This document shows positions 6,515 through 38,293 of a DNA stretch of 64,000 nt, one piece after another. The first letter of the stretch is position 1; every line of letters starts with the position of its first letter. Made by a program: the position numbers and the translations under genes. The stretch is from Rhypophila decipiens (lineage: Eukaryota; Ascomycota; Sordariomycetes; Sordariales; Naviculisporaceae). Location of the stretch: NCBI GenBank assembly GCA_033297075.1, contig MU858205.1, positions 1 to 64,000 of the forward strand. Reading direction: 5' to 3'. Below the pieces are notes generated by a model that had not been told where the DNA came from, did no database searches, and was given only the letters and a program-made list of their open reading frames with translations.

Positions 6515-7078
6515 ATGCCTTCCGACGCTCAGCAGCGCAAGGTCCTCATCCTTGAGGGCCGGAACAACGTCTACAGGGGTGACGTTGCTTGGTATTCTTT
6601 CTTCATTTCTTCGCTACTGGGTTCTACCTGGCAGTTCACTCAGTACATGGGCCAGTCGCTCCTTCCCTTTCTCATCTGCGTCCTTCTTGACGTCGGTGCT
6701 CTGATCGGTTTTGCAGGAGCCGTTGATTAGAATTCGACCTCTGAATTTACTAGAGAAGACAACGATGTTGAGGACCGCAAGGTCGCAGCTTCCAAGGAGA
6801 TCACGCCCAAGGTGGCGCCCCCGCCCAAGGTGGCTTCCGTCATTCAGGTAAGAAGTCCTCCTCCACAGCCCAAGGCAGCTCCACTGCCCAGGGGGGCCAT
6901 CACACCAAGGAAGTACTTGAAGCCCAGCCCAGCGCTGACGCCGACGGTGAACTACGTGCTGCATGCGCCTCTCTCCCGTGGCCGGAAGTTCATCAAGCGA
7001 TTCTTCGACAGCCACGGGCGCAAGCCGAGGACACGTCTCGCGGTGGCGCCTCGACTTGCAAACATCCCGGAGGAGTGA
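6515..7078 (+). CDS. Membrane-leader protein with in-frame UAG (71 + 115 codons)
   Basis: Function unknown. ATG 6515 opens a 71-residue ORF with two hydrophobic segments (about 26-40 and 46-68) that ends at UAG 6728-6730. The same frame continues open for 115 codons to UGA 7078. The downstream part is basic and proline-rich (VAPPPKVASV, RSPPPQPK, RGRKFIKRFF) and contains no methionine codon, so it can only be made by passing the UAG. The leader resembles those of the genes at 31692 and 38293 in length, hydrophobic layout and UAG ending (GFAGAVD-stop against ICEVAD-stop and LCEIAA-stop). The downstream part lacks modules X and Y. A pseudogene is possible, but the intact promoter layout and the recurring architecture argue against it. 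A TTTTGCAG just before the UAG was considered as a splice acceptor, but I found no good donor. Confidence 0.55.
6728..6730 (+). other. In-frame UAG after membrane leader (codon 72)
   Basis: UAG followed by AAU. The frame is open on both sides and no in-frame ATG lies in the next 115 codons. Confidence 0.8.
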
Positions 7079-9800
7079 AGTTGTCGCTCTTGACTCGCCC
7101 CTACTTGTTCTACCCCAGTGCGTCTCATTCCACTTGCCCCGGTGTGTTCCGTTTCTCCAGAAAAAAGAAAAAGAAAGAAATCTTGAAAAAAGATAATTTA
7201 TAAAAAATAACAGTTTCAATTTCCTTTGTCTTTCTTATTTGTTACCAGCACCAGCTCCTCTCTGATCTCCATGCGCCACTCCATATGTTCTGCTCCTTGT
7301 CTTTTCTCTTGGTTGCCTCGCTCATCAGTAGCTTGGTCTGCCTCCTATCACCCAGATTAAAATCATCAAGACTTCTCCACTTTGTGAGGGCTACTCTCCC
7401 TCTTTGAGCGGGTTGTCACTACGATGAGACATGTCCTTGTTCTATATGGCTGCAATGATTAGATTATATCAGTGAGCAGCTTTATACCTTGGACAAAAGT
7501 GATCGAAATGGGTCGATTTTTCTTTTACATAGATAGATTGGAGGGTTAAATACGATGGTTGGGTGTTCTACTTAATACACTATGAGATTAATTCCTGTAT
7601 CATTCATTTGTCTCTTCTTTGATGTTTATGCGCTAATACCCGTTCGTGCTACTTTGGCTGGCGTGACTGATTTGCGCATCGCAGGTTGATACATTCATTG
7701 GATTCTTGGAGACCATGCCTGTCTCCTTGGCTTGATTTTGTGGCGAGTTTCATCCCCCTTTGTGGTTGTGTACATGTTCCTAACTCAAGATTTGATTCAA
7801 GCATTTTATTTCGTGGCGGCAACCACGGGGCTGTCGCCCAACGGTACATGTCCATAGGACCACAGCGAAACTCAGACCTCAACACACGGTATGAATTCAA
7901 GACAACAACCTCTCACATCGGTTGAGCTTCTACAGAGAGATAAGGAAGGATGTGGCAATTTAGCATTTAAGGTCTCCTGGAACGGAAGTCACTGAACAGA
8001 TGAGAGACAGGATGTGGATGTTGGATGGGAATGGTTGGCGTTTGCTGACGCAGATCGTCAACAAGCGTCCTTGAAGAACTGGTGCTCGTTAGGTAGATAA
8101 CAAATCAACAAAATGCTCTGACGAGATAAGATTTCTTTGTCTTGTTCCTGGAGCTCAGGCTGTAGCTGTTGAACACCACGTAGTAATTGATGACTTTAAA
8201 TAGATTTATTGATCCTTATGTTGTTCAGAGAATAGAAGCCCTCATCTGACTGGCGCAGAGTTTTCCTTGTGGCCAGTCAGCTAGTCTAAATACAGTAAAG
8301 GGGCATTTCCAGATGCGGTATAGCGTTCAACATTGGCTACAATGCTTCTCATAATATCCAGTAATCTCGCGACCGACCGAACAACATTTGGCCAGAGAAG
8401 GAATCGGTGTGGGTGCTTACAGAGCAGGCAACAAAACTTGCTGCTTCCTAAATCTCAAGCGGGTAGGAATGATCTCCTCCTAACCAGGGCTCTTTACCAA
8501 CATCCACGACGGCAGGCATGCAATCTGGGCAAGTGGACCTCGGGCACATGCCGACCCAAATTCCAATGACAGCCATTACCTACATCTTCTGAGCCCATCA
8601 AGCATTGACGTGATGTTCCGGGACAGAAAATGTGTGCTGACATTCTCTCCCTGCCTCTCTTGCTTTCCTACTCTCTTGAACAGATATTTCTACCCGCTAA
8701 TGACTCCCAGGCAACCCAGGTAATCGAGACCCGTATCCATAATCATGGTTCATCACGGTTGTCTTGTCACTAGAATCCCAAGTTCCCAACGCTGCCCATA
8801 TCACCGTTCAGTCAATTGCATGGTGATGGGTCGCACAGCATGCGCCAACTTTATTTGGCACATGCTCATTGAACCTCGCACATCCGAGGTGCCGTCATCC
8901 GTAGGCTCGCCCAATCCAGACGCAGCCAAGAGTATCCACTCGGAATCTTCGACCAAATAGAAGCGCCATGTGTACAACCTGCTTTAAGTTCGGTTTCTAG
9001 ACGCAGATGCTGTACTACCTCTGGTGCATCGGTATGGACATCTACTCCGAACTAGCCAAGCCGAATCCCATTCCCGCTGTCCCTGGCAAATGTTGTGCTT
9101 CACAACACTCAAAGTTGTGCCAATGGTTCTAGCCTTGCCATTGCCTGGCTGGGAACAACACATACGCCGTTTTCGACACCGACATGCAAGCTGCATAACA
9201 CCAAATCAATATCCTGCTGAGTTTTCCAATCTTTGAACTATTCTACAATAAGGCGTCAAGGCAAAGCTCCCCATTTCTGCCTGATGCAGGATTACGTGTT
9301 TGTTCAGATCTCGGTAATTTTCAAGGTTTTCCCCCGAGTGGACAGATCCCATCACCGTCTTGTAGGACAATACCTACCGATATGCGAACCAAATAAGATA
9401 TCCCGCGATACGATCCGATGTGGCGTGATTCCCGTAGGCCGGAAGAGGGCTTCCGGTGCCGAGCGAGCGACAGGTGTCAGGAACGATGGACAACAGACGT
9501 CCACGAATGAGATTGAGAGACCAACACCAAGTCATATCGACACCTGGATCTTGGTCAATTAATTCGGTGTCTCTATTGGGAGTTTTCGGGGCCCTCGGTT
9601 CCCTGCACCAACTCTTGGTTAGCAGATGCCATCATGCCAGAAAGCGACAGTTTCAGTTCTGTCTACTTACCCTTCCTTCCTTTTTATTCTATTCTTTCTC
9701 TTTGCAAATGGTTGAAAACTGCAACAATCGACTAAGCCATCCATAAGTTGCGGCTCTGATACCTCTTTGACCACGACCGATTAAGGATACGTTTGTCCCG
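7079..9800. other. 2.7-kb gene-free interval
   Basis: Only short, unsupported open frames occur. No splice-linked coding segments or repeats were noticed. The last 150 bases are CT-rich, consistent with a 5' leader for the gene at 9801. Confidence 0.5.
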
Positions 9801-10751
9801 ATGCATCTAGACCTCGATATCGACAGCATCATGACATACACTTGGCCTACTCTACCTCTCAACCCTCCGACCCAATCTTCCTCACAATTTCCTCGGCTAC
9901 CCAATATCTCTCCCAACATTGCTGCGCCTATGCCCGAGAGCTCAAGTTCAAGCTCGATCCAAGCAGCGCTGGTCATATTTGGAGTTCTGTTCGGCCTCGT
10001 AACAGTTGGCATCATTGTCTGGTGTCTCTGTTGCAGACGGCGCAGTAGGACAGCTGATACAGAATCGAGAGCGCGAGAAGTCCGGGTAATACGTGGACCC
10101 CCAGGGCCTCCAGGACCTCCGGGCCCTCGAGGAATACCAGGCGTACCAGGACCTCCTGGGCCGCCTGGCATCGGGATACCTGGGCCGCCGGGAATATCAG
10201 GGCCCATGGGACTTACTGGTCCCCCTGGGCCACAAGGTCGGCAGGGTGAGAGGGGTCCACAAGGAGAGAAGGGGCCGAAGGGTGAGAGAGGCGAACAGGG
10301 TCCCTGTGGTCCTCGTAGCCTCCATGTTCAGACACAATATCCTGCCGGGAGTACGTCAAAACAAAGACCACAAGAGACACCTGGAGTAACTCCCGTACGT
10401 GGCAAGACCGCAAGGATGACCTTACCAAGAGAACTGATGTTTCCTGGTGTATCCCAGTCTCGAGCTTTGCGATCAAAGAGAAGAGGTGTCAGAAATGAGA
10501 GTTCAAAAATGGGAAAATTGCCTTCTGGCTACCGGTCACCCTACGTGGAGACGTCATTGGAGGAGGAGCTCTCGTCGCCTTCCTCTGCGAGTTCTGACCC
10601 AGAGTCAGAACCCATACAGAGAGCTTCGGGAGATTCGGCTCCAATACCCAGGTCACCAATCCGAGCACACAATGCCGACGTCGCAGCTGGCAGGGTGCGC
10701 TTTGACCTGCCCAAGTCCGTCGTCACGGGTAGGAGCACTATAGCGGCCTAG
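9801..10751 (+). CDS. Single-pass membrane protein with collagen-like Gly-X-Y domain (316 aa)
   Basis: Residues 1-50 are Ser/Pro-rich, with no classical signal peptide. Residues about 54-77 form one hydrophobic membrane segment ([19 protein letters not shown]), followed at once by CLCCRRRSR. Residues 99-172 are a collagen-like Gly-X-Y run of about 24 triplets with one interruption (GIGIP near 123-127). The first part is rich in GPP; the second is charged ([19 protein letters not shown]). The C-terminal 140 residues are basic, then Ser/Glu-rich. Collagen-like proteins are known in fungi, including a Metarhizium surface protein, but usually with secretion signals. By the positive-inside rule the collagen region would face the cytosol here, unless the protein inserts the other way. 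Intron-free. A second ATG at 9831 is an alternative start. Confidence 0.8.
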
Positions 10752-11598
10752 TTGGGTTTGATTAGCATTGGAGCACTGAAAGCGGTTGGTTTTGGGGTGT
10801 GGAATTTTGGTCGAGGATTATTAATTTTTTTTAGTTTCTGCTAAAGTAGGCGCCAGCAAGATAGAATCAAATAACAAGAAGCACGGTGAACCATGAAATT
10901 ACTCAGCTACCTATGCTATGGTCGAGAGACCCCTATTGGGCCCATAACCGCCGCTGTGCATGTTATCGCCCCGCTGCACCACAGCCTCACAGTCACAGGT
11001 CTGACTCAAAAACCAGAAAACATCCGATGGCCGTATACGAATAGATACAAGTCAATGAAATCTGAAATCGCAAAACAGTCATGTCACCGCCCAATCCCAG
11101 ATAAGAGCTTGGATGAAAGAGCAACGAGTGCTGAGGGGCGCAAGGGCAGGTGCAGGCACATGGCAGGCTGAGATGGAAGTGGGTCTCAGCGTGGGGCAGC
11201 CCGCCTCACCAACTACAAAAACGAATTTCGCCTTGTAAGTTGTGCCTCTCCTCCTTTCTTCCACAACCTCCAACCACCTTCCGTCACCGTCACAGGAGCA
11301 CCATTCAAACTGCGACGCTTTCTATTCAACGTCACCGACACTTCTGCAAACCCATCTCTTGAACTACGCGCCTCTAAGTCCCAACGAGTCTGTCCTTGCA
11401 ACTTGCGGTGGTGCAAACGCCGAATCAATTGAAAAATAGACCACCGACTTGGGCTTTTGTCGCAAACTACAACTTTTCGCCCCCACCAAAAAAAACCCGA
11501 CGCTCGATTTCTCACTTTCACTTCCACGCCTTTGCCACATTTCGATTCTCAAATACCCTCCGTCACCTCACGCCGTGCCATAGGTCTCGGTCGGCAAG
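10752..11598. other. Intergenic region and 5' leader of the DUF4246 gene
   Basis: No gene supported. From about 11230 onward the strand is pyrimidine-rich with CACC/CTTCC runs, as expected for a 5' untranslated region of the gene starting at 11599. Confidence 0.45.
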
Positions 11599-13740
11599 AT
11601 GGAGGTGGATTTCTCAGCCTTTGACAACTCCGGCTCCGGCCCTATTAAGGTACCTGGCTTTAACGGGCTTGATCAGTATGTCGAGGGCGTGGGAAGTGAC
11701 GGCACACGTCGCTTCATTCACGCCTTGGACAATCCCAGGCACTGGCCGATGCGTGCCACGGCACGTGAGATTGCCATGCTGAGGTGTATGGAGAGAATCA
11801 CCGACAAGCCGAGATGGCACCGCGACATCTTCGTGCAGGATATCCTGTCCGAGTGGAGGGTGGAGGCGATCAATGCCGACTGGAAGATCAGTGACAAGGC
11901 CTGGACGTGGTGCGTTCAGGAATTGCAGGACAAAGCGCGAGATTTCGTCGACACAGGCCGCGTTGTGGTATTGGACTACGGTGCAGCGAGAGTATGCAAA
12001 TTCGACTTGACCGACGAACTGACTACTCTGTTGCAGTCGACTGTTACCGAGGTGGGAGAGAGGGAACCCAGAAAATTACTCCCCGGCTCAGACGGCGTTG
12101 CTCACATTGTCGATCCACACCTTGCTCCTCTTATGTATGGCTGGACGAAGGTTTTGTCCAAGGGCGGCGTTGTCGGAATGGATGACGTTGATGCATATAA
12201 CCGCGGCGATCGAGCTCCAGAGGCATGGGGTAGCTTGGACCCGATAGAGCTCGAGGGGGAGGGGGACCCCTGGGCCAATGCTCACACCATCGCTCGTCGG
12301 CAACAGGTTCTGGGGTATATGTTTGAGGATAAGCATTGGCTTCCGTGCGAAGTGTCCTTCAGCACCGGGACAGCAACACGGCCGAAGGTGAACATCACAT
12401 CGTACATCAACGATCTACACCCACACGGACAAGCTCATGCTTATGCAGCCATGGAGCAGGCTGTTTCCGTCGCCGTTGAGTCCTGGAACGACGTTCTCAT
12501 TCGTGCCCCAGATGCTTGCAAGTATCCATACTCAAACTCCATGGCAGTGGGCAGAACACCAGCGCGAATCAAGACATACGGTGCACAATATCACCCCGAG
12601 CCCGGTGTGTCATTTACTTTTCAGGAATGGAAGGCGGGAGAGAACGTGGATCGCGCCATTGTCCCAAAGCATGCTATCGAGCCAGATGAAGAGTTTGAGC
12701 CCTACTCCGTTTCCATACAGAACCAATTCCGAGAACGTGGGCTGCAGGTTGTCGTCCAAATAGACAGCATCGAACTGGACCCCTCGCTCCCGCCTCCCGT
12801 CGCGAATTCCGAACCTTACACCTGGCATTCAGCGGACAGTCAGGCAACGGACTACATCTCAGCTACCTCCATCGTTTTCTTTGACCTCGACAACATCGAA
12901 CCTTTCCGCATTTGCTTCCAACAGCCGTCGCACCTTGAGAAATCCCACTTTTCCGACGCTGAACAAGGAGACTTCAGAGGCATGAGGGAAGTCTTTGACC
13001 TCGGCTACTTGAATTACAGGGCCGGAGACCGTCGTCGCAAAGACCGCCATATTTGGTTTCAGGACTTGGGCTCGGTCGAAGCATGCAAAGGACGGATGGT
13101 CTCATTTCCCGGGCCAGTGAGCTATAGGTTCGATCGCTCCAAACTCGTCGATCCCTCGAAGCCAGGACGGGCCCGATACTTGACCCTCCACCTGGTCGAT
13201 CCAAACTATCGTGTCTGCTCAACAAGGAACGTCCCACCTCAACGACTAGACTGGTGGGCTCATGACGTTGCGAGACGCACGCACTTTGAGCTGCCGCAGG
13301 AACTGTATGACATGGTAATCGCGAAGGTAGCGGCCGACCTCAACTCCGCTAGTCGGGTTGCTGGGCAGAAATGGCCGATGTTCACCAGTGAACTGCTCCA
13401 GGGACTGGGGCGGCAGATGCTAGCAAGTCGTCTTCTCAATGAGAGGTCGGTACGCAGCTATATTTTGCACTGTCCTCCTCTCAACCAGCTGAGACACGGA
13501 CCAGGATTCCTCGAGCATGATGACGAAGCCGCCTCTAACGAAGAAGACGACTCAGAGGAAGCCGACTCTGATAACGAAGAAGACGACTCAGAGGAAGCCG
13601 ACTCTGAGGAAGAAGTTTCCGCAGAAGATAGGGCATTCTGGAGAGGAGCCCTATCCGAGATTGATGAACTATCCGAGGAAGATATGGAATTGTACTTCCA
13701 AGGCGGCGAATTGATGGTACTGGATGATATACCAGAGTGA
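11599..13740 (+). CDS. DUF4246 family protein (713 aa)
   Basis: A fungal family (Pfam DUF4246) of unknown biochemistry, recognised from its layout. An N-terminal segment has AREIAMLRCMERITDKPRWH; a mid-region has SYINDLHPHGQAHAYAAMEQ; then WNDVL; then a core that ends ATSIVFFDLDNIEP. In other members, as I recall them, the core carries a conserved W-H-x-E-G-x-x-x-E stretch. Here the corresponding place (about residues 408-418) reads TWHSADSQATD, so the motif seems altered. The C-terminus is a strongly acidic tail (about 635-690) built partly from a duplicated 34-bp DNA unit. Intron-free. The ATG at 11599 is the first in frame after a pyrimidine-rich leader. Catalytic activity should not be assumed. 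Confidence 0.8.
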   Translation: MEVDFSAFDNSGSGPIKVPGFNGLDQYVEGVGSDGTRRFIHALDNPRHWPMRATAREIAMLRCMERITDKPRWHRDIFVQDILSEWRVEAINADWKISDKAWTWCVQELQDKARDFVDTGRVVVLDYGAARVCKFDLTDELTTLLQSTVTEVGEREPRKLLPGSDGVAHIVDPHLAPLMYGWTKVLSKGGVVGMDDVDAYNRGDRAPEAWGSLDPIELEGEGDPWANAHTIARRQQVLGYMFEDKHWLPCEVSFSTGTATRPKVNITSYINDLHPHGQAHAYAAMEQAVSVAVESWNDVLIRAPDACKYPYSNSMAVGRTPARIKTYGAQYHPEPGVSFTFQEWKAGENVDRAIVPKHAIEPDEEFEPYSVSIQNQFRERGLQVVVQIDSIELDPSLPPPVANSEPYTWHSADSQATDYISATSIVFFDLDNIEPFRICFQQPSHLEKSHFSDAEQGDFRGMREVFDLGYLNYRAGDRRRKDRHIWFQDLGSVEACKGRMVSFPGPVSYRFDRSKLVDPSKPGRARYLTLHLVDPNYRVCSTRNVPPQRLDWWAHDVARRTHFELPQELYDMVIAKVAADLNSASRVAGQKWPMFTSELLQGLGRQMLASRLLNERSVRSYILHCPPLNQLRHGPGFLEHDDEAASNEEDDSEEADSDNEEDDSEEADSEEEVSAEDRAFWRGALSEIDELSEEDMELYFQGGELMVLDDIPE
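13537..13606 (+). repeat. 34-bp perfect direct duplication in acidic tail
   Basis: The 34 bases at 13537-13570 recur exactly at 13573-13606, a 36-nt period that is a multiple of three. The unit encodes NEEDDSEEADS and lengthens the acidic tail without changing frame. Confidence 0.85.
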
Positions 13741-14141
13741 CTTGTCGGGGTGATCTCAGGCATAATTGTCTTGACTTCCAGTCCAGTCAGGGCATCTATT
13801 CTAGCCAGCTATGCCATTGATTCTAATCTGGTCCAAGCATTTATTCCAGCATAAAAAGGCACCTGATGATCAAGAGGAGGGGAAGAAAAGTAACACGAGA
13901 TAGCAAGTACTATAATCCAGCAGCGAATAGCGATAGATAGTCAATGGCATGTTTTAAGTTGTACAAAACCCGCGCTCACTGTTTGCTCTGAGCGTACCTA
14001 CTACTAATGAAGCTGAATGCTTACAAGAACGTGAAAAGCAAGATGGCATATGATCTGCCACTGGTAACATCACCCCCGATTATCATTGTATTCCAGAGCT
14101 CCCTTTCGTATCCAAAATCCCAGGTCTTTCTCCAAAGCCTC
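13741..14141. other. Short convergent intergenic region
   Basis: Lies between the 3' ends of the DUF4246 gene (plus) and the BTB gene (minus). Nothing else seen. Confidence 0.5.
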
Positions 14142-15371
14142 TCAGTAAAGCTGATAGCCAAGACTACTCTCCAAATTCAACCCCTTAACGCCATCCTCCA
14201 GGTCCTCGATCCCATCCAACCGAGCAAAGACCCTTCTGGCCGCACAGTCATGCCCGTTATCGATCCTCGGCAAACCGCTAGTTCCATTGAGACCCGTCCT
14301 AGAAACCGGCTCAGGCGAAGAATCAGGCGTGATAGGTTTTCCAACCCCCGCATTCGGGCTCTTTCGTTTCCTATTCGCTATGACGCCATTCGTTTTCCGG
14401 GCGGCGCTATTATCCCAGAGACTTGCTCCCAGGCGGAAACGATCGAGCTGGATACTTGTTCCGCCAATGGCCTTCACGATCCCGGCGTAGCTTGCTCCGG
14501 TGAAGGGCTTGGCTGGTTCGGGCCAGATGGAGGTGTGTCCTGATCGATGGAGGGTTTTGATGAGGTCGCCTAGGAGGAAGTTGTCGCAGAGGTGGGTGTC
14601 GCATTTTGAGGCTGTTTCGTTGAGGAGGTCTTGGACTGCTGAGTGGATTATGTGGAGGGATTTGCCTACTATTTCTTGGCGTTGGGCGTCGATGTGCTCT
14701 TTGGTTAGATTGTTAGTATGGGAATCTGGGGGTAAAGGTGGCTGGCAGGGAAACTTACTGATGATCTTGTCACGGATGGGCAAGCCATGGGTGTTGATTG
14801 GGCCGGAAGCTACTAGGGCGATTTGGCGTGTGGTTTGCTTGAAGATCTCGGCTTGTTTGAACACGTGGCTTATGTAGATCCATTGTGTGAGAGCTTTCTC
14901 GCTTAGCTCGTCGACTGAGGCGCTGGTGCTTTTCCAGAGAGTACTGATCCACCTGTCTGCGTAGATTTCCAGGCTCTCGTAGAATTGGAACTTGTCCACA
15001 AAGAAAGCAATCTTGGCGAGGGTGTCCAGGTCCGCATTCTTTGGGACTTTGGATCCCCGGCCGTGGACGGCGTTGAGGACGACCGTCACTGCCTTGGGGT
15101 CGAATCCGGGGGTGAGTGAGATGTGGACTCGTCCGTCGGATTGGATCTGGCTTGACTTTTTGAACTGGAGCTTGTTTTTAAAAGGTTTCGAGGAAAGCGT
15201 GAGATGCTTGGATGAGACTTTGAGTCGGAGACCGGGGGTGGTTGAATTTGGTGAGGATTGAGCAAAAGGGGGGACTATGAGAAGGACATCGGCATCATGG
15301 TCGACTTCGTAGAGGGAGGTCATGTTGGCGAAGGGGGATTCCACCACGAGTATTTGGAGAGAGTCCATCAT
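14142..15371 (-). CDS. BTB/POZ domain protein (about 389 aa after splicing)
   Basis: Residues about 22-140 have the BTB/POZ pattern of fungal single-domain proteins: D-A-D-V-L-L-I-V, L-K-V-S-S-K-H-L-T-L-S-S-K-P-F, then FDPKAVTVVLNAVHGR and a LAKIAFFVDKFQ helix. BTB domains mediate dimerisation and recruit partners; no second domain is recognised, so the partner is unknown. One intron is likely at 14699-14758 (60 nt, donor GTAAGT, branch TACTAAC, acceptor AAAG). It is a multiple of three and has no stop, so the unspliced reading of 409 aa is also open. Splicing changes a Ser to Lys at the junction and removes a proline-rich insertion. The C-terminal third is Ser/Pro-rich and weakly conserved in appearance. 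Start ATG 15371, or 15368 immediately after it. Confidence 0.75.
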   Translation of the reverse strand: MMDSLQILVVESPFANMTSLYEVDHDADVLLIVPPFAQSSPNSTTPGLRLKVSSKHLTLSSKPFKNKLQFKKSSQIQSDGRVHISLTPGFDPKAVTVVLNAVHGRGSKVPKNADLDTLAKIAFFVDKFQFYESLEIYADRWISTLWKSTSASVDELSEKALTQWIYISHVFKQAEIFKQTTRQIALVASGPINTHGLPIRDKIISKFPCQPPLPPDSHTNNLTKEHIDAQRQEIVGKSLHIIHSAVQDLLNETASKCDTHLCDNFLLGDLIKTLHRSGHTSIWPEPAKPFTGASYAGIVKAIGGTSIQLDRFRLGASLWDNSAARKTNGVIANRKRKSPNAGVGKPITPDSSPEPVSRTGLNGTSGLPRIDNGHDCAARRVFARLDGIEDLEDGVKGLNLESSLGYQLY

Positions 15372-20749: not shown

Positions 20750-23550
20750 GCCTCGTGCGAACCAACGGATAATTGTTTCCCTGATGCGGAAAGGTTCGCT
20801 TGCTTGCTCTCCTGCCGCTGGTAGCATCCATGATGGCACGTCGACAGCGGAGGGCGACAGTGGCATACACAATGTGAGAAACTTGTCGAGGAATTGCCTG
20901 ATGATCGGAACTTCCTCGGTGAGATGAACGGAAGGTGTGAGGTGCTCTGGGCTTGATTCATCTCCGAAATGGGATAACAGCGTTTCCGCGGCGGTTGAAC
21001 CTCGATGGCATATTCTAGGTCAATCTGTATCCTGGTGCTATGCAAGATATCCGGAGAAAACAATCCGGAACCTTCTGAGGACCGAGGCTGTTTTAGGAGT
21101 GGCTTCAAATGATCTTATCGTACCTGGTAAAAATGATTACTCATCGGCCACAACTTCCATTTCCCCTAATATCTGTGGCTGTAAGAAGAAAAGTGAAGGC
21201 ATATTGTGTGTTAGACATTCAGTGCGCAAATATACCGGACTCGATGCCAATGTGAGGCGGAGCAAGGGAGAGTGGGAAACAAACATGTTTTGCCGCACCC
21301 TGGCCGCACCGAGTTCTCGGACGATTCTTCCTGTCGCAATGGTACGGCGTCGAATCCGCGGGGAATTTTTGCGCATCTCATTGTACCTCTGAGGGTTAAC
21401 AGATTCATGGGATGGACTCCGAGTATGGGTTTTGTCGAGTTGAAACTTGAAACCAGACGGTGAGGACAGTTTCCTTGACCGCTCCTTCCGACTCAAGGGA
21501 TGTTCGCAACATCGCCTTCCGTAATGCGATATAAAAACGGAACTGAAGTGGATCCACTCCGTCGGAAATGCGACCACGTCAGCATGTAACTCTTCACGAA
21601 CATGTGTGAAGAATGCAGAGAACTGGTGAATGGGAATTTGGCAAGAACCTAGCTCTACACATCTGCCGGGATTCCAAACGATGATGTGGTCCCAACCAGG
21701 TGGTTTCGTGGCTGCCCATTGCCTTCGTGTTTCTCTCTTCCTCCCCCTTGTCATGTTTCTTCTTGCGCTGACCAACCAATCGAGGAATCGGGAAATTTGA
21801 CCGAAAAGTGGGACAGTGAGATCTGAGCATAAGCCTGGCAGGGGTAGGGCCTAAGCAGCTATCCGGCCCCACAGGTGAACCGCTCTGTCGGGTCCCGCTG
21901 GTCTCATCGCTCAGATCCTTCAGCTTTTTTTCTCATTTCTCAAAACGGCCACTCTCCGTGCAGATCTGCTGGGCCTTGTTCAGCTTTTTCCAGCCGTATT
22001 CGTACCTCACGCCAAGGTCAAAAGCAAGCGAGACCGAAACAGGAGCCCCTGCAAATTAAAATGGCATTTTTCACTCGAGCCCGACAAGCCACTTGTGACT
22101 TTATTTACACGTAACAATGCCATTTTCCTCGATCAGTCATCTGCCTGCCGCGAGTCAACATCGAGTCGTCGAGCCACGCAAGAATTCACAAAACCCAAGA
22201 GTGGTGCGCATCAATTCCCAGCTGAACGGTTTCCTGTCCGGTACAGATGTGATTATGCGTGATTGGCATTTTTGGCGCTTTCCGATCAGTGCGGCTTTTT
22301 CTCACTGTTTCTTCAACAAGGCATTTTGTCGTCGGCGCATTTTCTAACCTCATCATGAAGGATCGTGGGAGCCTTGTTGAGCCCTTGACTTGCAGCTTCA
22401 AAGTCAAACAGATCCAGCCCTTGCACGACAAAATGCCCCACTGCCAACTTGCTCCTTGTGGGCCCCTCGACCCTCATCCAACCCTCGCCCGCCTGCGCTG
22501 GGTTTCCTTCCGGATTTGGACTGGGAGAAACGGTCTGACAGTGGATGGGTTTGCACGGTTCCACCAGCCCTCCACTGCACCGTAGCGGGTGCAGGTCATT
22601 GGGCGGGGGGCAGATCCGCGCCGTGCCGCCTTCGCGGAGTACGGAATGGGCTGCCTTGGCTGCGATGAGACGGCGCTATTGGACGGGGGAGAGATCCGAA
22701 GAGCGCCATGTCCAGAGGGTGTGTGCTCATTTGCTCCCCCACGCATGGGCATTCGACGGGCCACGAACACCCCCCAAATGCGCCAAATCGACTTTGCAGC
22801 TCTGCAATTCGCCAATGGGCCCTGCTAAAGACCCTCTTTTATCCTCTTTTCCCTGTCAGGTTTAGAGCGTCGCAGTCAAAGTTGCAGTGTGATTGATGAA
22901 GTGACGCGACGGATTTCTGTGCCGGCCGGTAATGTTCCCTTTTCCCTTGTCCGATCCCCTGCACCTCCAGTGCCTGGCTGAACGGCGCGCAACATTTCGG
23001 TCGTTATCGTGGGAATTGCCATTGGCACTTGTTCCTCGTTTTTCCCGTCAATTATTTTCCCTCATTTTTTTCCCTTTCCTTTTTTCTTTCTTTCCCCGCC
23101 ATAGCGACATATCAAATCCTACGACACACTTCACTCCTCTGACCGGTTTCTGGGCGCGAACTGCAGGTGCCGGCGCTGGTTGCCTTGCACCCAGGGTGAT
23201 CCAGTCGTCTGGTAAACTTGTTGGTCCTGCGCTGTTCCATTGTGCTTCTCTCGTCCAATGCTTTCCCGCCATCCGTCAACTTCCCGTCGTTCGTTTCTTC
23301 CCGCCAGTTCCAGCTGGCCGGGTCGCCTGGATCTTTGACGACTGTTGACCGATCCATGATCCTGGAATCGGTTGGTGCTGTATAAGATCTCGGTCCCAAC
23401 CGAAAAAGTAGAAAGCGATAATACCCACCACCAACTTTCGGTACATATATCTCCGCCATCGTCCGGTTGCACACAACCTTCATATCCATCGTCATCAACT
23501 ATCCACCTCGCATTATCACCTGCGCTTGGATGCTCTGAGCGTTAGTGGTG

Positions 23551-29640: not shown

Positions 29641-29689
29641 GACATTCATACAACCAATCCACATCCAACCCAGCCGGGCATCCAAGATG

Positions 29690-29880
29690 GCGAATGCAAA
29701 AGAAAACCCAAGATAAAACCTAACAAAATGAAACCCAAAATAGAACCGGAAATAAAACCCAAACAAGAACCAAAAGAAAGCCCAAACGAGAACCCAAAGA
29801 AATACCAAACGAGATGCCAAATAAAATCCAAAGAAAACCCAAAGTGAGAACCCAAAGTAGAACCACAATTCGCAACCCTG
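29690..29880 (+). repeat. A-rich degenerate repeats of AACCCAAA type
   Basis: Roughly a dozen imperfect AACCCAAA/AACCAAAA units at 10-18 nt spacing between the stop codon of the 29959 gene and its shared 3' element. Similar but shorter A-rich DNA lies at 35160-35260 near the paralogue. Confidence 0.6.
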
Positions 29881-29958
29881 AGCCGGAATCAAGAAGAAAT
29901 AACAGGGTGCTCGAAGGACTCGTGGACTGCGGCACTTCGCTGCGGAGCGCTGACTCGT

Positions 29959-31692
29959 TCACAGATCATAGAAAGAACTCTTGGAACGAGTGAGGCTGTG
30001 TCGGCGCCTGGGAACCGGAGATGCAATGACGGCTGGAACGGAGATGACAGTCTTCTCCGGCTCCTCATCCGAGTCCATCTCTGCAATCTCATCCAGAGAA
30101 GCCAGACCATCGCAGGATACTAGCCAGGGGTGCTCCTTGTAGTGGGTGTTGTCTACAAGGTAGCCAGTGACACCCTCGGGTGAGGTCATCGTGAGCTCAG
30201 GAATGGGGAGGCCGCCCCTTCTGATTGCACGGCCGCTGTCGATAACGTTGCAGACGCTGGGGGTTTCTTGAACAGCCCAGGTGCATTTTGCCACCCGGTA
30301 GAAACCTCGGGCCTTCCAGTATTCTTGGTTTGCCATTTGGGTGAGATAGATGTGCTCATGGTAATCCACACCGCTGTGTAACTCCCAGCCTGGATACCAG
30401 TGTCCGGTCAAGGGGAGGGGATGAGGCTTCTTGGCTGGTCCTTCCTCCTCACTATCGTACTCGTCACTGTCCTCCGCGTACAGGGCTTCATCCTCAGAGT
30501 CCATGTCTTCGAGGTCGCTGTCGTCTTCCTCGGACTCTTCGGCAATTGTGTCCAGCTGGGTGGGCATTACCAGCTGGGTAGAGGTTTTCAATTGCGTGAC
30601 TGGGGCCTCTTCTTGCGGAACCTCCTCTTGGGCGACCTCCTTTTGGGCGACCTCCACGTCTTCCTCTTCATCCGAGGACACAGTGACGTACTCGGCGTCG
30701 TAGTCTGGATGGAGCCAGACTGGCTCCGGCTGGGTGACTTGCCACCATTGATCCAGCCCGCTAACCTCCCCAGGAGAGACCGCTCGAATCTTGCGGTCCT
30801 TTCTCCAATACTGGCGACCATTGTTGGCAATTGCCAGGACGACATCGCCCCAGACTTCCCGCTCGAACTCGGCAATAATCTCCCATTGTGGAGAATACTC
30901 AACGATGGTGTCGGGCTGGTCGCAATCGTTGTCGAATATAGTGGTGAAGCCAGGCACGTAGTTGGCGGACCGGTCTTCAGTCGAGTTGGTGGATTGGTCT
31001 TCAGTCGTGGTGGGGTATTGGTCTTCAGATTTAACTGGGACAAGTGACGATTCACTTCCTTCATGCTCAGGGACTTCAGCGCTGAGAACTGACGATTCAG
31101 AAGCTGGATACAGAGTCAGTAGAGGAACAAGTACATTCTCGTCAGAAAGTGTCTTGCCCTCTGGGATCAACTCCTCAACATGCTCAGCGGAAGGGGAGTC
31201 AAGGCCGGTTTTATAGTAGCAGTCATCGCCAAGGTGTGTGGAGTCAACGTCGAAAGTAGAGGGGCAAGGTGTAGTGCTGCCTGAATCATCAGATTCACTA
31301 CAAGAAAAAGAGTCTGTTAGTCTTTTGGATGTCGGAAAGTTAGACAGGGAATCAAAGAGAGCTTACCTCTGGGAAGAGAGATCTGGGTTTGCAACATGGT
31401 TGGGTTGAGCATCATCCGGCGTTACTTTCGTGGTTCCATTCTGGGGCTCATCATCCGAGAAGACAACCTGCTGGCCGCGCGACAGCTAGTCGGCGACCTC
31501 ACAGATCATCTCCAAGGATGAGAGGAGGGGGGAGCGGAACAGGAGACCACAGGTGAGGAAGTAACCGGAGAGCATAGTGAATGTCGAGAAATGGCCGAGA
31601 AGCCACAGAATAGCGACAAGAAGGAAGAGATTATAGCCGCACGAAGCGACGTGGGGATGCTGAGTAGCAGCGGGAAAGCTCTGGGAAGCCAT
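29959..31692 (-). CDS. X/Y-family membrane-leader protein with in-frame UAG (553 aa + UAG)
   Basis: Exons 31692-31367 and 31297-29959. The 69-nt intron has donor GTAAGC, branch GACTAAC and acceptor TTGTAG. ATG 31692 opens a 68-residue leader with two hydrophobic segments, ending ICEVAD-UAG (31488-31486). The frame then continues through the intron to UGA at 29959: 485 more codons. Codons about 244-308 are module X (WEIIAEFERE, AIANNGRQYWRK). A long acidic stretch with QEEVPQEEAP repeats follows. Codons about 401-500 are one module Y (PLPLTGHWYPGW, HSGVDYH, LPIPELTMTSPEG), and a basic tail closes the protein. The first in-frame ATG after the UAG lies beyond module X (codon 353), so internal initiation could not yield the whole downstream product. 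Function unknown. It is closest to the gene at 35551-38293. Confidence 0.7.
31486..31488 (-). other. In-frame UAG after membrane leader (codon 69)
   Basis: UAG followed by CUG. The leader's last residues match the paralogue's up to the stop (SLEMICEVAD against SLQVLCEIAA), so the stop position itself is conserved. Confidence 0.8.
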
Positions 31693-31942
31693 CGTGTCGT
31701 GGTGGTGATTGCTCGTTGGAGAGATGAGCAGTGCGCAGACAAGTGTGCAGAGAAGTGTGCAGACAAGTGCGTAAATAAGTATGTAAATAGATTGCAATGA
31801 TGTAAAAGAGCAAGGAAGATAGTCAAGCAATGAAGTGCTGATGAAAATCGATGGATGCGGTGTCGATTTGCTAAAAAGCGTGTCGAAAGGAAGAGGAGAG
31901 GAAGGAAGGGAATCGTGGACAGTTTGGGAACGGAGGGAACCC

Positions 31943-31948
31943 TTTATA
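31943..31948 (-). promoter_or_regulatory. TATA box of the 29959-31692 gene
   Basis: TATAAA on the minus strand about 250 nt upstream of the ATG at 31692, downstream of the shared CAGGTCCGTGCAC element. Confidence 0.45.
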
Positions 31949-31967
31949 TGTGTCCGAAAAACCGGAG

Positions 31968-31980
31968 CAGGTCCGTGCAC
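31968..31980. promoter_or_regulatory. CAGGTCCGTGCAC element shared with the paralogue's promoter
   Basis: The 13-mer recurs exactly at 38686-38698. The two copies lie about 280 and 390 nt upstream of the two paralogous start codons in the same orientation. It could be a transcription factor site or retained duplication. Confidence 0.5.
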
Positions 31981-32357
31981 ACGGCCTGGCAACCGGACAG
32001 CGGGGCGGGCAGGGTCGGATGGAACTGGTCACCCGAGTCGACGGCGTTGGAACAGCAACCTTCGGGGAGCTCCGGGCTCGTGGTGCACTGCAAACTAGCG
32101 GTCAACAAGTCCCTGACTCAGTGTGTGTCAACAATAGTGGGGTGGTCCTGTCTTTCTTGGAAAGGTCACCTGTCGAATGGTGATGGTGGGGGAACCAGGA
32201 GGGGTTTATCAGTTGGACGCAGAAACCTCGATGTATCCTTACCCACTATGACCATACCAGTAAGGTAAATTACTAGCTACATTTCAGGTTTTCAGTTCTA
32301 GACATCATAATCTCTCCGCTTCTTAACCATCACCAGAAGAGGTCTACAGTCGCTAAT

Positions 32358-32912
32358 ATGCATCTCATGAAGGTTACACCTAGCCTCGCTAGAAGGATGA
32401 CGTTGATTATCGAGTCCCCACGTACGTATACTTGAGCAATCATTATTCGCGCAGATGACTCAAACTTCAACTTCAACGTCATCGCTGCCGCCTAACATCT
32501 AACTTTACCTTGGCCATAATCTCGAATACCGAAACGGTTCATGGCTTGGCGGTCTCCCAGCCTCCCGCACCCTCTGTGACGACCTCCTGAAAACACACCA
32601 TCTTCAACCACCCTGGCACACGGACATCATCCAAACCGACGATCTCGACACAAAAACGAACCTGAGATTTTCAAAGGCAGACTTGATTGATAACCGCCGC
32701 TCAATCGACGTCCTCATTGAGAGAGGGCTCTTGGCGGCATGCCCCACCTTGTGGAACCATTCAGCCTTGTAAGAGAAGTCCTATTCCTACTAACCGAATC
32801 ACATGCGCGAAACTAGCCACTACCACGTCGTCCACGTCAACGAGAGAGTTCAGTTATCATGTTCCTGGATGCGACGTGGTCAGTTGTATGGGACGCCTGC
32901 TCTTTCCATGTG
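32358..32912 (+). pseudogene. Decayed multi-exon gene remnant
   Basis: A frame open at 32503-32772 without an ATG reads like a structured protein (LEYRNGSWLGGLPASRTLCD, NLRFSKADLIDNRRSIDVLI). It runs into a good intron at 32769-32816 (donor GTAAGA, branch TACTAAC, acceptor CTAG), after which HYHVVHVNERVQL continues for about 32 codons to a stop. Upstream, MHLMKVTPSLARRM (from 32358) and DDSNFNFNVIAA look like further pieces, but they cannot be joined without stops. No family recognised. Probably a degraded gene, though an undetected exon structure is possible. Confidence 0.35.
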
Positions 32913-33825
32913 AACTTGATCCATGGTATAGCTATGAGGACATCCAGAAAACTTCTTACCGGCTTGCAGGCGCACGAGAGACAGAGGGGGAAAAGCCTGC
33001 GAGAGTGGCTCACAGGACGCTCATCGAGTTACCTTGGAAGCTGGAGGATGGAACGACACGCCTGTGAATTGAATTCAAAACAATACGAGGGGCATCAGAG
33101 AGTAAGGAATGAGGTGTCGTCTTTCCGAGCCTTCATTTCTAGATGCAGTGTGCTATCCTAATACAAACTCCCAATCTTTTCCACCAGACCTCTTCCCAAA
33201 GTTCACCAGAGACCCCCAGACCATCAGTGATACTCAAGACAATCACCAGCCTTTTCACTCAGATTCATCTTCTTCGGCCCGTCAACACCGCACTTCTTCA
33301 AACAGAAGCTCTTCAACTGCGGCTGAAAAGCCTCATATACCTTCTTAATATCCTTGACGTCCTTCTTAAAGTGATTCTAATCTCCCACAGAAAACAAAGC
33401 GCCCATATTCATCCCACTCGAGCCGGCACAAGTCAAGAGGCTATTGATCCATCTGTTATTTGCCTTCTTCTGCGGCCTGTGCCTTTTATAAATGGCAACG
33501 CATGACTTGCGCGTGGGGTGAAAAGCACAGAAGGCTAGATCCATACAATTATCTCTGGGACAGGCTGCCCCGTAAGGGAGGATCAAGTTCGGGTCGACGG
33601 CGTGGCCGATTTGGTAGTCTGAGATGTCCTTTGCTGGCGTGAGGCCTACTGACTTGCCACGGCGAGCGGTGGATTGGATGTTGAGGGCTGTTCTCTTCTC
33701 GCTGAGTAAGCCTATGGGAACCGCGGTGGAAGAGATACATGAGATGAGGTGTTTAACGTCCGGGAGGGAAGAGGGAGAAACGACGACCCGACTCCCCTTT
33801 AGGTAGGTTGCATTAGAGTTAGTCA

Positions 33826-34330
33826 TCAGACCGGAGGCGGCATCCTTGGGAGGTGAGGGGCCTTCTTGACTGATTTTGGGATAGTAATTTTGGACAAAAT
33901 GACATGCGTCTCGTCCAGTTCTGTGTATCCGACACAGGAAGCCATGGGATCGCAGTTCGGGCGGGCGTTATGGTCGTATGCGAATGGTTTGTAGCCCATC
34001 GGACAGGCGCAGGATCTGTAGTCGTACTGCTTGTTGTGAAAGTAAGGGGTTTGACTGTTGGAGTAACACTGTCTGCCGATTTGATGATGGTTATCCCGCT
34101 GGATAGGCCAAACAGCTCGTTCTTGTTACATCCGATGGCCAGATAGCCCAGATTCGCGCACATCTCAACCTCGAGGACGAACAGGGATTGCACATGGGCA
34201 GGCAGAGCTTCTTGTTGCCCAGCTCGTTGACGTAAGGGCATTGGACTTTCGTCCCGCCACGGTGTTCTGTCTTACTCATAGCGAGCCTAGCAAAGGCTGG
34301 CAGGAGGAGAACTTTTGGCGACGGCTTCAT
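33826..34330 (-). pseudogene. Frame-disrupted Cys-rich, possibly secreted protein
   Basis: ATG 34330 starts a signal-like sequence (MKPSPKVLLLPAFARLAMS) followed by a Cys-rich stretch (VQCPYVNELGNKKLCLPMCN), which hits a stop near 34091. In another frame, 33826-34125 is open for 99 codons with ordinary, Cys-rich coding character (GRQCYSNSQTPYF, YRSCACPMGYKPFAY, NCDPMASCVGYTELDETH). The two halves overlap and no plausible intron reconciles them, so a frameshift is the likeliest explanation. The cysteine pattern recalls small secreted or EGF-like fungal proteins, but no family is identified. Confidence 0.4.
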
Positions 34331-35394
34331 CTTGGTGGGTTTTGTGTGTGGAAAGACAGGCTCTGATTTCAAGTGGGGCTTGGAGGAAATGGTAGCGTTA
34401 TTATAATATCCATGAGGAGTACTCGGAGCGGGATGCTGACGAGAGAAGGCGATTGTGTAACTTCCTTCCTGAGAATCCATCAAGGATTCAAGTCAGGGTA
34501 AGGCTTGACGCGGATATTAGTTAAAGCTGAAAATGACGCCTCTCACTGGTCCTGATGTTCCCAAAACAGTCACTAAATCTCGACCTCGGACGTTTCACCC
34601 CGTGAATTGAAGCAATCTACTGAGGGTATAAAATACCTTAACCTGCAGGTCGTGGCTCTGGTACACGATGCAAGAGCCCAACTCATGCACCCGAGCAATC
34701 TCGCGTGAGCATACCGAAAGACTCGAATACAAATGGAGGCGTGTATGCTTGCGAAAGGGGTAATCATCACGACAGAAAGTGATTAACAGCGAGTAAGATC
34801 TCGGTGGCCGCTTGCACGCAAAAGTCAAGAATCGCAGGTTCGCGTCTAGACAAGAAGTCAAGAACCTGAAGGGCTGGACCTGGCATATGGTTTGCAACGA
34901 GAAATGGGTAGATAGAGTCAGATTAGCAGAATCGAGTCCATCAAAGCACGTCAAAACTACGATCGAGTCGCAACAAGCAAAGTTAAATGTCAAGGCAATC
35001 CAAGTCGAAGAGTTCACAAGCACAATGCAGGTCATCAGAGTCAGATCAGTTGGCGGCAAACAACTCAATTAAAGAAATCTGCCAAAGGTTTATATGTAGG
35101 CAAGGCGCATCTCAGACTGTACAAGCAAACCTCTAATCTCCATTTACTCGGAGATGATCTAATACCGTTTCCCAAAAGCCAAACCAAAACGCCATAAATG
35201 AAATCAAAATGCAAATACCCAGAAACTCCCAAAATGTCAAAACTCCAGAAGAAAATTCCCAATGCCCAACATGGCGTACCCAAACATGATGAATGATATA
35301 CAATGTGTCAACAACCCGATCCTTTCCCTTGCTCCTCCAGGCTCGACCATAATACAATCTCTATATAGCCCGCTCATCCCCGGCACTCGAGAAA
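34331..35394. other. Intergenic DNA between remnants and the 35551 gene
   Basis: No supported gene. A-rich degenerate repeats occur at 35160-35260, near the shared 3' element. Confidence 0.45.
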
Positions 35395-35450
35395 AAACCC
35401 CGCCAGCTTTAGCTGTAGCGTGGGAAAAAGAGGCCTCTTGAGCTTTCTCC
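35395..35450 (-). promoter_or_regulatory. Conserved 3' element shared with the paralogue at 29959
   Basis: CCAGCTTTAGCTGTAG at 35403-35418 inside a block closely matching 29590-29640, about 130 nt past the stop codon at 35551. Conservation outside the coding region suggests recent duplication or a selected RNA or termination signal. Confidence 0.5.
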
Positions 35451-35550
35451 TCCAAACCCATTCAGGAAATCCCATCTTCATCCTCCACTCTTCCCCGTCT
35501 TTATCGTCCCCAAGATGTGTGTTGAGAATGATGACTGATCTGACTTGCAC

Positions 35551-38293
35551 TCACTCGTCATCATCGTCCATGTCCGCCCAGTTGGTCTGGCCTGGGTAAT
35601 AAGCTGTATCATCCAGCCAGCAAGTCTCACCCTCTGGAGTTGTAAAGGTAAGTTCAGGCACTGGCAGCCCATTGGACAGCTTCACAGAACCAAAGACCCG
35701 TGAGAGCACCAAGTCTCGGCTCGGCAGAGACACCCATGTATTTGGGCGGTTTTGGCATTGAACCTCGCCGCCAGAGGCAAAATAGTCCTCCCACTGCCGC
35801 TTTCCGGTCAAGAAAATCTTTCCGTCTTCATCAACACAGCTGTGAAGAGCCCAGCCGGGGTTGAGGTGCCCAGTGAGGGGGAGAGGAGGGCAGTCTTCGG
35901 AGAAATTCTCCCCATCTCCAAAGAGGCCGTCATCGTCATTGTCATTCTCATCGGACTCATACACCTGGACTTGTCCAAGGCCAGTCTCAGATGCAGCGAG
36001 GACCTCGGAGGAAACGAGGTCGGTGCAGGAAGTGAGGTCCTGTTGCGACTCCTGGACTGGCTCCTCATCGCCATCATCATCCGCCCGGTTGGTCTGGTCA
36101 GGGTAGTAAGCCAGATCCTCGAGCCAGCCAATTTCACCTTCCGGTGTAGTGATGGTGAGCTCTGGCACGGTTTGGCCAGAGGGAAGGATTTGTTGCTTGC
36201 CGAAATTTAGCAAATCCGAGGGACTCTCCATTACGACCCATGAGGTCTTTGTGCTGAGTCGGAGTCCGTTGGTTGAGTGGTACCAGTTTTGGTAGTCCCG
36301 AATGACATAGACCTGTCCGTGCACATCTATGCTGCTGTGGCCTTTCCAGGAAGGATTCTCGGCCCCTGTGAGCGGGAGAGGATTGAAAGTCTCGCCCTCG
36401 TCATCCTCGCTATTTTCAAAGAGGGTCTCATCATCGGATCCATAGGCCGGCTTCCCAAGGCTCATGTGTGGGATGTCCTCGTCAGGGCTCTCCTGGATGG
36501 CGGTAACGTTGGAAGAGACGTCGTGATCGGTGTTCTCGGCTGCTTCTTCCTCCTCAGACTCCTCCTCAATTGTGTAGAGGTCCCTGGGGGCGCCGGGGAT
36601 GGTGGCTGGACTTGGGAATACAGAGACTCCAGCAAGATCCCCCGTGGTAGCAAGGTCCTCTTGGGCCTCCTCGGCCAGCTCATCATCATCATCGTCCAAG
36701 TCGGCCCAGCTAACCTGGCCTGGATAATATGCCAAGTCTTCAGGCCAGCTAACCTCTCCCTCTGGAGAAGTCACGATGGGTTCTGGCACTAGTTGGCCAG
36801 AGGGCAAGATTTGACGTTTGCCCCTGTTAAGCAAGCTGGATGGAGAGTCCATGGTAGCCCAGGACGAAGCCTTCCTTTGGCACTTATATCCCTGGGCAAT
36901 GAACCGCTCATCATCGTAATCTCGGAGCAAGAGAATGTGGCCGTTCTCGTCGATCCAGCTGTGCTGGGCCCAGTCAGGATGATGAGCACCCGTGTGGATT
37001 AAAGGGTGCTGGCGAGCCTCGCCGGTATCGGGATCAAGACCGACGTTCCAGTATTCCTCAAAGGTGAAGAGGCCTGGTTTCATGTAGACAGGGGTCGCAC
37101 CCGTCTGTGTCACCCATTCAAGAAGATCCTCGATCTCGGCGTCTGTAAGGAGCTTGTACCGATTCTCTTTGCGCCAGTAGCGGCGCCCGGTGTTTGAGAT
37201 AGCATAAGCTGCCTCAAATCCGTCGCGCTCGAACTCGACGACTATCTCCCAATCCTCGGAGAACTCCGCAATCTCTGTGTCTTGCTCGGGGCAGAGCTCA
37301 TCGGTCTCACTGGTGGAATCTTCGGCTGGCTGATCTTCCTGTTGGTCCTCATCCTCTGGATCCGAGAGCAAGGCAGAGCTCTCATAATTGTCGCGGACAT
37401 TATTGGCAATGGAGTTATATTCGTTATCAGGGAGTGGAATTTCCGCCAAAACGGTGGCCGTCAATTGTCGGACAACGTCGAAAGGCAGAGGACAGAAGTC
37501 TTCGTCGTCTGACTCAGAGTCAGAGTCCGGAGGAGTGGGCGTATTGGAACGAGAATAAACAGAGGACCCATGACTGAAGATGGAACCTGGATCAGTGCAG
37601 TAATTGCTAATACAAAATTCGTTAGCCTGTTATTCATCAAGAAAGAAAGGAGTTGAGAGAAAGATTGAAATACCTTGATCCTGAAGAACGCCGAGTTGAG
37701 AGCTCTGGTTCTGTTGAAGGTTCGACCTCGGGGTGTCCATCCTCATCAAAGGCAGAAAAGCTGTGAGAATAAGCTGTTAGTCTTGTGTTGTCATTGGAAT
37801 CAAGTGAGGAAACATACCAGAAAGACCAGTCGATGCTGTTGTCAAAGAAGGATTCTTCTTCTTCTTCAAGTTCTTCTTCCTCGACGATTTTTGCAAGCTG
37901 GAGGTCGGGAAGGGCGAAACGTTGGAATGGATCAGGCCTTTCGACGGTGATGTTGGGCATGGCCTCGAGGAAGAGCAAATATGAATCGGCATCGAAAGAG
38001 GCTTCTTCAGTGGCGTCGGTTATGGTGGTGTTGTATTCATCTGCTCCTTCGTCGATGGAGGTTCCAACCGGAGATGCAGCCAACTAGGCCGCAATCTCGC
38101 AGAGGACCTGCAAAGAAGCAAGGAGGAGAATCAGGAAGAGAAGACCGAAGACCAGGCAAGGACCAGTGAGGCGAAGGATGTTGACCGTGAGGGCAAGGAA
38201 CCAGAAGAGGAAGGCGAAGAAGTCGAGAGAATTGCTGAGGGTAGGAGCACGTGGCTCAGTGGCGAGAACACGAACACTCTGTGTCGAAGACAT
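35551..38293 (-). CDS. X/Y-family membrane-leader protein with in-frame UAG and three Y modules (871 aa + UAG)
   Basis: Exons 38293-37818, 37760-37674 and 37606-35551. Introns of 57 and 67 nt have donors GTATGT and GTATTT, branches GACTAAC and GGCTAAC, and acceptors ACAG and TTAG; frames agree throughout. ATG 38293 opens a 69-residue leader with two hydrophobic segments (FFAFLFWFLALTV; LVFGLLFLILLLASL) ending LCEIAA-UAG (38086-38084). The frame continues for 802 codons. Module X occupies codons about 306-371 (WEIVVEFERDG, AISNTGRRYWRK). Three Y modules lie at about 388-489, 596-697 and 761-866, separated by acidic linkers. The protein ends WADMDDDDE. The second intron matches the intron of the 29959 gene in phase and flanking residues (ESDDEDFCPLPFDV). 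The first downstream ATG is at codon 112. Function unknown. A membrane-anchored acidic scaffold is an inference. Confidence 0.7.
35572..35889 (-). repeat. Module Y, third copy
   Basis: PLPLTGHLNPGW, HSCVDEDGKIF, NTWVSLPS, LPVPELTFTTPEGE, AYYPGQTNWAD. The most complete copy; followed by the acidic C-terminus. Confidence 0.8.
36079..36384 (-). repeat. Module Y, second copy
   Basis: PLPLTGAENPSW, HSSIDVHGQVY, TSWVVMESPSDLLN, TVPELTITTPEGE, LAYYPDQTNRAD. Shares FGKQQILPSGQ-type sequence with the first copy, so these two are closest. Confidence 0.8.
36703..37008 (-). repeat. Module Y, first copy
   Basis: HPLIHTGAHHPDW, HSWIDENGHIL, SSWATMDSPSSLLN, LVPEPIVTSPEGE, LAYYPGQVSWAD. Lies just after module X. 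Confidence 0.8.
38084..38086 (-). other. In-frame UAG after membrane leader (codon 70)
   Basis: UAG followed by UUG. No canonical donor (GTATGT, GTAAGT or GTGAGT) occurs in the leader that would let an intron remove it. Confidence 0.8.

Follow-up and report, generated by a model that had tools for sequence, protein, structure and literature searches.

The DNA analysed here, referred to as the window, comprises the first 64 kb (positions 1 to 64,000) of a 90-kb contig, MU858205.1, in the 45.7-Mb assembly GCA_033297075.1 of Rhypophila decipiens, a fungus of the class Sordariomycetes, order Sordariales. It carries three genes, g1 (6515-7078, plus strand), g2 (29959-31692, minus strand) and g3 (35551-38293, minus strand), in each of which a hydrophobic leader ends at an in-frame UAG and the leader's frame then stays open. 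Our results make it probable that g2 and g3 are paralogues whose in-frame UAG serves as a site of fungal adenosine-to-inosine (A-to-I) mRNA editing, whereas the membership of g1 in the same editing group is doubtful. The evidence comes from two unusually stable hairpins that present the UAG in their loops, from coding-like and conserved reading frames beyond the stop, and from the mutually incompatible ways in which deposited gene models bypass it. The features of the three genes are as follows.

g2:
31489-31692, minus strand: leader, 68 codons, two hydrophobic segments, start context GACACGATGG
31486-31488, minus strand: in-frame UAG, codon 69
31456-31518, minus strand: hairpin of -34.6 kcal/mol with the UAG apical in a 5-nt loop, UAGCU, and the A at loop position 2
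31367-31485, minus strand: coding stretch from the UAG to the first intron, in the leader's frame
31298-31366, minus strand: intron, 69 nt, GTAAGC...CTAAC...TAG, spliced out in the deposited models P0004 to P0006
31104-31157, minus strand: probable additional GC-AG intron, 54 nt, predicted from the deposited models
29959-31297, minus strand: second exon; modules W (30697-30915) and X (30121-30432), with acidic linkers

g3:
38087-38293, minus strand: leader, 69 codons, two hydrophobic segments
38084-38086, minus strand: in-frame UAG, codon 70
38064-38106, minus strand: hairpin of -21.3 kcal/mol, with the A second in the 5-nt loop UAGUU
37818-38083, minus strand: coding stretch after the UAG; the first Met, taken as the start in the deposited models, comes after 41 codons
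37761-37817, minus strand: intron 1, 57 nt
37674-37760, minus strand: exon between introns 1 and 2
37607-37673, minus strand: intron 2, 67 nt
35551-37606, minus strand: last exon, with module W and three copies of module X (W and X1 within 36697-37287, X2 at 36076-36387, X3 at 35563-35895)

g1:
6515-6727, plus strand: leader, 71 codons
6728-6730, plus strand: in-frame UAG, codon 72, in a weak local hairpin
6731-7078, plus strand: open frame beyond the UAG, 115 codons, of uncertain coding status

The folding energy of the sequence around every TAG on both strands of the window, provided that it lay at least 50 nt from the window's ends, was used to rank the hairpins (1012 TAGs). With 15 nt taken on either side, the g2 site (-17.5 kcal/mol) ranks first and the g3 site (-17.4 kcal/mol) second, and at 20 and 30 nt on either side the two hairpins rank second and fourth of the 1012. 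Outside the window, 11 stretches of 10 kb placed arbitrarily contained 1737 TAGs, 2 of which had energies of -17.4 kcal/mol or lower, as did 2 of 1402 TAGs in nine stretches chosen for other reasons (L016-L024). The three UAG sites tested were those named beforehand in an original prediction made from this DNA, so that no selection of sites entered the comparison. Shuffling synonymous codons in a way that preserves both proteins reached the observed energy of g2 in 25 of 20000 cases at 15 nt on either side, 4 of 20000 at 20 nt and none of 400 at 50 nt; the corresponding counts for g3 were 91 of 20000, 49 of 20000 and 4 of 400.

The two hairpins are also built alike. In the structural ensemble of the 30 nt on either side, the adenosine of the UAG is unpaired in both genes and the pairs from -2:+4 to -5:+7 have a probability of 1.00, so that the four inner pairs (-2:+4, -3:+5, -4:+6 and -5:+7) stand in one and the same register. 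Two of these four differ on both sides of the stem, -3:+5 being A-U in g2 and C-G in g3, and -5:+7 being C-G in g2 and G-U in g3. This comparison, which involves two sequences only, suggests that the structure was kept while its sequence changed. The g1 site is of another kind: its hairpin of -6.3 kcal/mol has a 7-nt loop with the A at position 3, ranks 221st of 1012 and is equalled by 10932 of 20000 shuffles. Its 5-bp stem and 7-nt loop do have the register of a tRNA anticodon arm, which 17 of 1738 background TAGs show as well, but in wider sequence context this stem has a probability of only 0.13.

Stable structures were seen at other TAGs as well. The TAG at window position 22583 (plus strand), in seemingly non-coding sequence, forms a strong hairpin with a 6-nt loop (-21.5 kcal/mol at 20 nt on either side). 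On another contig, C9, a TAG (L024:3215, C9:479714) close to a weak module-X match sits in the stem of an inverted repeat, with -16.1 kcal/mol at 15 nt on either side.

The layout described in the original prediction is present in the sequence: the leader frame, after splicing, runs on past the UAG for 115 codons in g1, 485 in g2 and 802 in g3. Homology between the g2 and g3 leaders, earlier claimed for their ends, is confirmed; they are 31% identical, and their global alignment score of 77 (shuffled mean -7.9, standard deviation 10.8) was reached by none of 1000 shuffles. The two genes are homologous in their downstream parts too. The g1 leader resembles those of g2 and g3 weakly, with shuffles reaching its scores in 5 and 6 of 1000 cases, and the downstream part of g1 gave no match in the module search of the genome. 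The three introns proposed earlier proved sound, each containing CTAAC, and both g3 introns agree with the deposited model P0001. To them we add the probable GC-AG intron of g2, which is frame-neutral and whose 18 residues are missing from P0005 and P0006 and coding in P0004. Module W is predicted, in a structure model of fair quality, to consist of four strands and a helix.

The reading frames beyond the stops of g2 and g3 are more than chance, since they have coding-like codon use and relatives in other genomes. A codon-use score, trained on the 7263 codons of 10 long open frames, gave 0.146 for the first 40 codons after the g2 UAG and 0.237 for the 41 codons between the g3 UAG and the first Met, in each case the best of the six frames; 35-codon pieces read in a wrong frame have a median of -0.07 and a 95th percentile of 0.127. 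The 115 codons after the g1 UAG score 0.082, which is the top of the six frames but below the wrong-frame 95th percentile of 0.091, and one minus-strand frame is likewise open throughout that stretch. The model P0006 from Rhypophila sp. PSN 637 is identical to the g2 model at 345 of 472 aligned residues, with the leader kept (50/63) and module W at 52/66; P0002 is identical to the g3 model at 604 of 750. In g3 conservation is highest in the modules (X2 92/100, against 70/93 and 42/60 in linkers), and in g2 the contrast between modules and linkers is slight. The deposited R. decipiens protein of g3 is QBC37DRAFT_54228, with relatives in PSN 637 (V8F33_012806) and, in partial form, in Naviculisporaceae sp. 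PSN 640.

Two more genes of the window bear on this family. An ATG-started gene at 1097-2947 (minus strand) has W-like and X-like modules, and no leader of this sort lies just upstream of it; the family is thus clustered on this contig. At 4218-5600 (plus strand) lies a broken paralogue of g2 and g3 that starts with MASQSEALTD and has no membrane leader. It contains a TAG at 4629, a TGA at 4863 and an insertion that splits module X, and the hairpin at its TAG is not notable.

We consider that the UAG is likely passed in a regulated manner in g2 and g3, by means of RNA editing. A-to-I mRNA editing of stop codons has been described in Sordariomycetes (passages of PMC4817773 and PMC11156358), and according to the former the favoured adenosines lie in stable hairpin loops with a U on their 5′ side, an edited UAG becomes UIG and is read as Trp, and stop-loss editing occurs in 323 genes of Fusarium graminearum. 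The editing enzyme is given in parts of PMC11087585 as Tad2-Tad3 together with the DUF726 protein Ame1, the Ame1-Tad3 interaction having arisen in Sordariomycetes. Applied to g2 and g3, folding of the mRNA would expose the UAG adenosine in a stable hairpin loop whose geometry resembles that around A34 of a tRNA anticodon arm, with a U 5′ of the A and pairing from -3:+5 outward. Conversion of UAG to UIG, decoded as Trp, would then fall to a deaminase, most probably Tad2-Tad3 assisted by its cofactor Ame1, during sexual development. The unedited mRNA would yield a two-helix membrane peptide of 68-69 residues, and the edited mRNA a membrane-anchored protein of about 550 (g2) or about 870 residues (g3), with the two-helix anchor in front and acidic linkers, module W and between one and three X modules behind it. 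In this scheme we infer the editing itself, the enzyme, the stage and the making of both products. Deaminase-domain genes are present in the genome, and the DUF726 domain of Ame1 was found at three places, one match containing stops that may be introns. The original prediction had proposed regulated passage of the UAG for all three genes. The hairpins and the coding-like frames uphold this for g2 and g3, with mRNA editing as the probable means and not ribosomal recoding, and the claim falters for g1, which has neither a strong hairpin nor a convincing coding signal.

In their DNA-testable features g2 and g3 fit the editing mechanism, save for the base at +3. Both genes have U at this position, and A or G is favoured there at edited sites (excerpts of PMC11156358), which counts against our interpretation, as do several other observations. 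The g3 hairpin is less extreme when 50 nt are taken on either side. The register itself is frequent in synonymous shuffles, all five pairs of g3 being present in 1213 of 5000 and the first three of g2 in 1097 of 5000, so the statistics rest on energy and not on register. The leaders of g2 and g3 have codon scores of 0.091 and 0.097, below those of a minus-strand frame at the same place (0.109 and 0.162). g1, without a strong hairpin, does not fit. The orthologues of Tad2, Tad3 and Ame1 could not be separated from their relatives, and the evidence that relatives conserve the UAG and hairpin is indirect. Finally, the in-frame UAGs that adjoin two OLD-type genes of this genome, described below, are the best candidates here for targets of a known kind, and they are without strong hairpins; editing of that kind therefore does not require one.

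The public gene models avoid the stop in every case, in g2 in three different ways. P0004, from this genome, matches its own DNA exactly once a 120-nt intron over the g2 UAG is removed. In P0005, from R. decipiens V8F06, the first 104 residues correspond to the window DNA minus 27 nt around the UAG. P0006 leaves the leader after the residues EMI, as P0004 does, and resumes elsewhere. For g3, both P0001 and P0002 begin at the Met beyond the UAG. Because a sense codon in the relatives would have made such detours needless, their gene models point to a stop at the g2 site in V8F06 and in PSN 637 too. The incompatible g2 models may be an annotation artefact, by analogy with that reported for A-to-I-edited fungal stops: Liu et al. 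2016 (PMC4817773, in part) describe false introns over edited UAGs in at least 69 F. graminearum genes besides PUK1. The 27 nt missing from P0005 are the core of the hairpin, and their removal could also stem from a jump of reverse transcriptase in RNA-seq rather than from the predictor's choice.

These models could nevertheless be taken at face value, in which case an intron, perhaps an alternatively spliced one, would take out the UAG. We regard this explanation as unlikely, although it survives better than the others. All three g2 models are annotated in this way, the 120-nt candidate, with GTGAGG as a fair donor, keeps the frame, and FgBUD14 is known to undergo both splicing and editing at a single UAG (a section of PMC11156358). 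The models are inconsistent with one another, however, and the one in P0005 excises the hairpin core. The 27 nt of that segment also fall short of the normal length of an intron. When all frame-keeping candidate introns of 40-200 nt over the UAG were considered, a CTRAY branch site was found in none of the 13 candidates in g2 and none of the 6 in g3, and the looser CTNAY in 2 of 13, with poor donors, and 0 of 6; by contrast, all three real introns contain CTAAC. No good candidate exists in g3, and in g1 CTRAY occurs in 4 of 19 candidates whose donors are poor.

Ribosomal readthrough or recoding at the UAG, with no editing of the mRNA, would require a UAG with an open frame on both sides, which is what these genes have, and structures in an mRNA can stimulate readthrough. 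The fungal readthrough motif is UGA CUA, though, and the stop here is UAG, followed by CUG in g2, UUG in g3 and AAU in g1. With the UAG inside the loop, moreover, an arriving ribosome should already have opened the stem. We judge readthrough improbable.

Slightly less probable again is that the leader forms a short gene of its own and that an internal promoter, leaky scanning or reinitiation gives rise to two products. In favour of this, g3 has a Met 41 codons after the UAG that is the start in P0001 and P0002, but those 41 codons are themselves coding-like. In g2, numbering from the UAG, module W begins at residue 178, the first in-frame Met is at 284 and module X begins at 332, so that initiation at this Met would lose module W, which is conserved in PSN 637. 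The leader start contexts look good, no other ATG occurs within 150 nt upstream, and the hairpins would be left unexplained. The original prediction had set internal initiation aside on the grounds that a downstream Met is absent in one gene and lies beyond module X in another; the former is true of g1, and the latter needs correction, since the g2 Met precedes module X and follows module W. That the genes are decaying, with a disabling stop and relic frames downstream, is the least probable explanation, for although the broken paralogue at 4218-5600 illustrates such decay, g2 and g3 are otherwise intact, keep the identities to their relatives given above with the modules best conserved in g3 (if with little contrast in g2), and carry two top-ranked hairpins at their stops that would be unexpected in relics.

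Among known systems, editing of the UAG in g2 and g3 would stand closest to the premature-stop-correction (PSC) and stop-loss editing genes of Sordariomycetes, such as PUK1, which are acted on by Tad2-Tad3-Ame1. Shared with them are the fungal class, a UAG in frame that is followed by further coding sequence, an A in a stable hairpin loop with U at -1 and G at +1, and, in g2, introns placed over the stop by automated annotation. A conserved frame interrupted by a UAG was found in g2 and g3 and is uncertain in g1; an A in a stable loop was found in g2 and g3 and is lacking in g1. The differences are that the stop of g2 and g3 closes a short two-helix leader, that the extension is 485 or 802 codons long, that the two genes are paralogous with hairpins in one register, and that editing is here a prediction from the DNA. 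Fungal UGA CUA readthrough likewise gives two proteins with a common N-terminus from one mRNA, but the stop and its context differ, and the stop of g2 and g3 lies within a hairpin loop.

The antiviral OLD-ZAO editing module, which includes CHE1 of F. graminearum, also has a UAG in the early part of the gene, and a hairpin-loop A edited to UIG gives the full-length protein. The module is known from Neurospora and is said to occur in Sordariomycetes (portions of PMC12754623). OTT_1508-like deaminases (PF14441) were found at no fewer than five places in the genome, none of them on the contig of g2 and g3 (C161), and the downstream frames of g2 and g3 gave no zinc-finger match. g2 and g3 thus differ from OLD-ZAO in having no neighbouring deaminase match of this type, in a search whose counts are lower bounds, and in giving no zinc-finger match. 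At two of the stretches chosen for other reasons, L017 and L019, such a deaminase adjoins a gene interrupted by an in-frame TAG.

L017:4659-6364, minus strand: deaminase, confirmed by Pfam
L017:7595-8419, plus strand: divergent TAG-bearing gene, TAG at L017:7997
L019:4329-6309, minus strand: deaminase, confirmed by Pfam
L019:7216-8058, plus strand: divergent TAG-bearing gene, TAG at L019:7660

Finger-like stretches follow the TAG in both genes; L017 has a zinc-finger match below threshold, and L019 has none. These are probably OLD-ZAO pairs of R. decipiens, and so a second editing system in the genome. The hairpin contrast between their TAGs and those of g2 and g3 suggests that g2 and g3 belong to another system. 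Elsewhere in the window, two adjacent single-exon frames (54068-54739 and 56466-57425, both minus strand) have in common, by eye, a Myb/SANT-like stretch, 'WTEE.D'.

The original prediction knew of no described family with this layout. This holds for the gene family, since the homologues listed for g3 and for g2 (three each, the window's own included) are all labelled 'hypothetical protein', and it does not hold for the kind of mechanism, which is known (PMC4817773 and PMC11156358, both in part); the literature searched gave no description of g2 and g3, of their membrane-leader layout or of the paired hairpins. The two genes also illustrate that public annotation can conceal genes of this sort, truncating them or patching them with incompatible introns. 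Whether edited fungal stops are tolerated accidents or regulatory devices has been argued both ways (extracts of PMC12754623), and two diverged paralogues, each with a UAG, a hairpin in the same register and a membrane leader, provide a clean test of accident versus device. We tentatively propose, as a possibility that has somewhat less than an even chance, that the hairpin predates the duplication of g2 and g3 and that selection has preserved it by way of paired changes, in which case each gene would be a developmental switch, set by one deaminated base, between a functional two-helix membrane micropeptide and a long modular protein anchored in the membrane.

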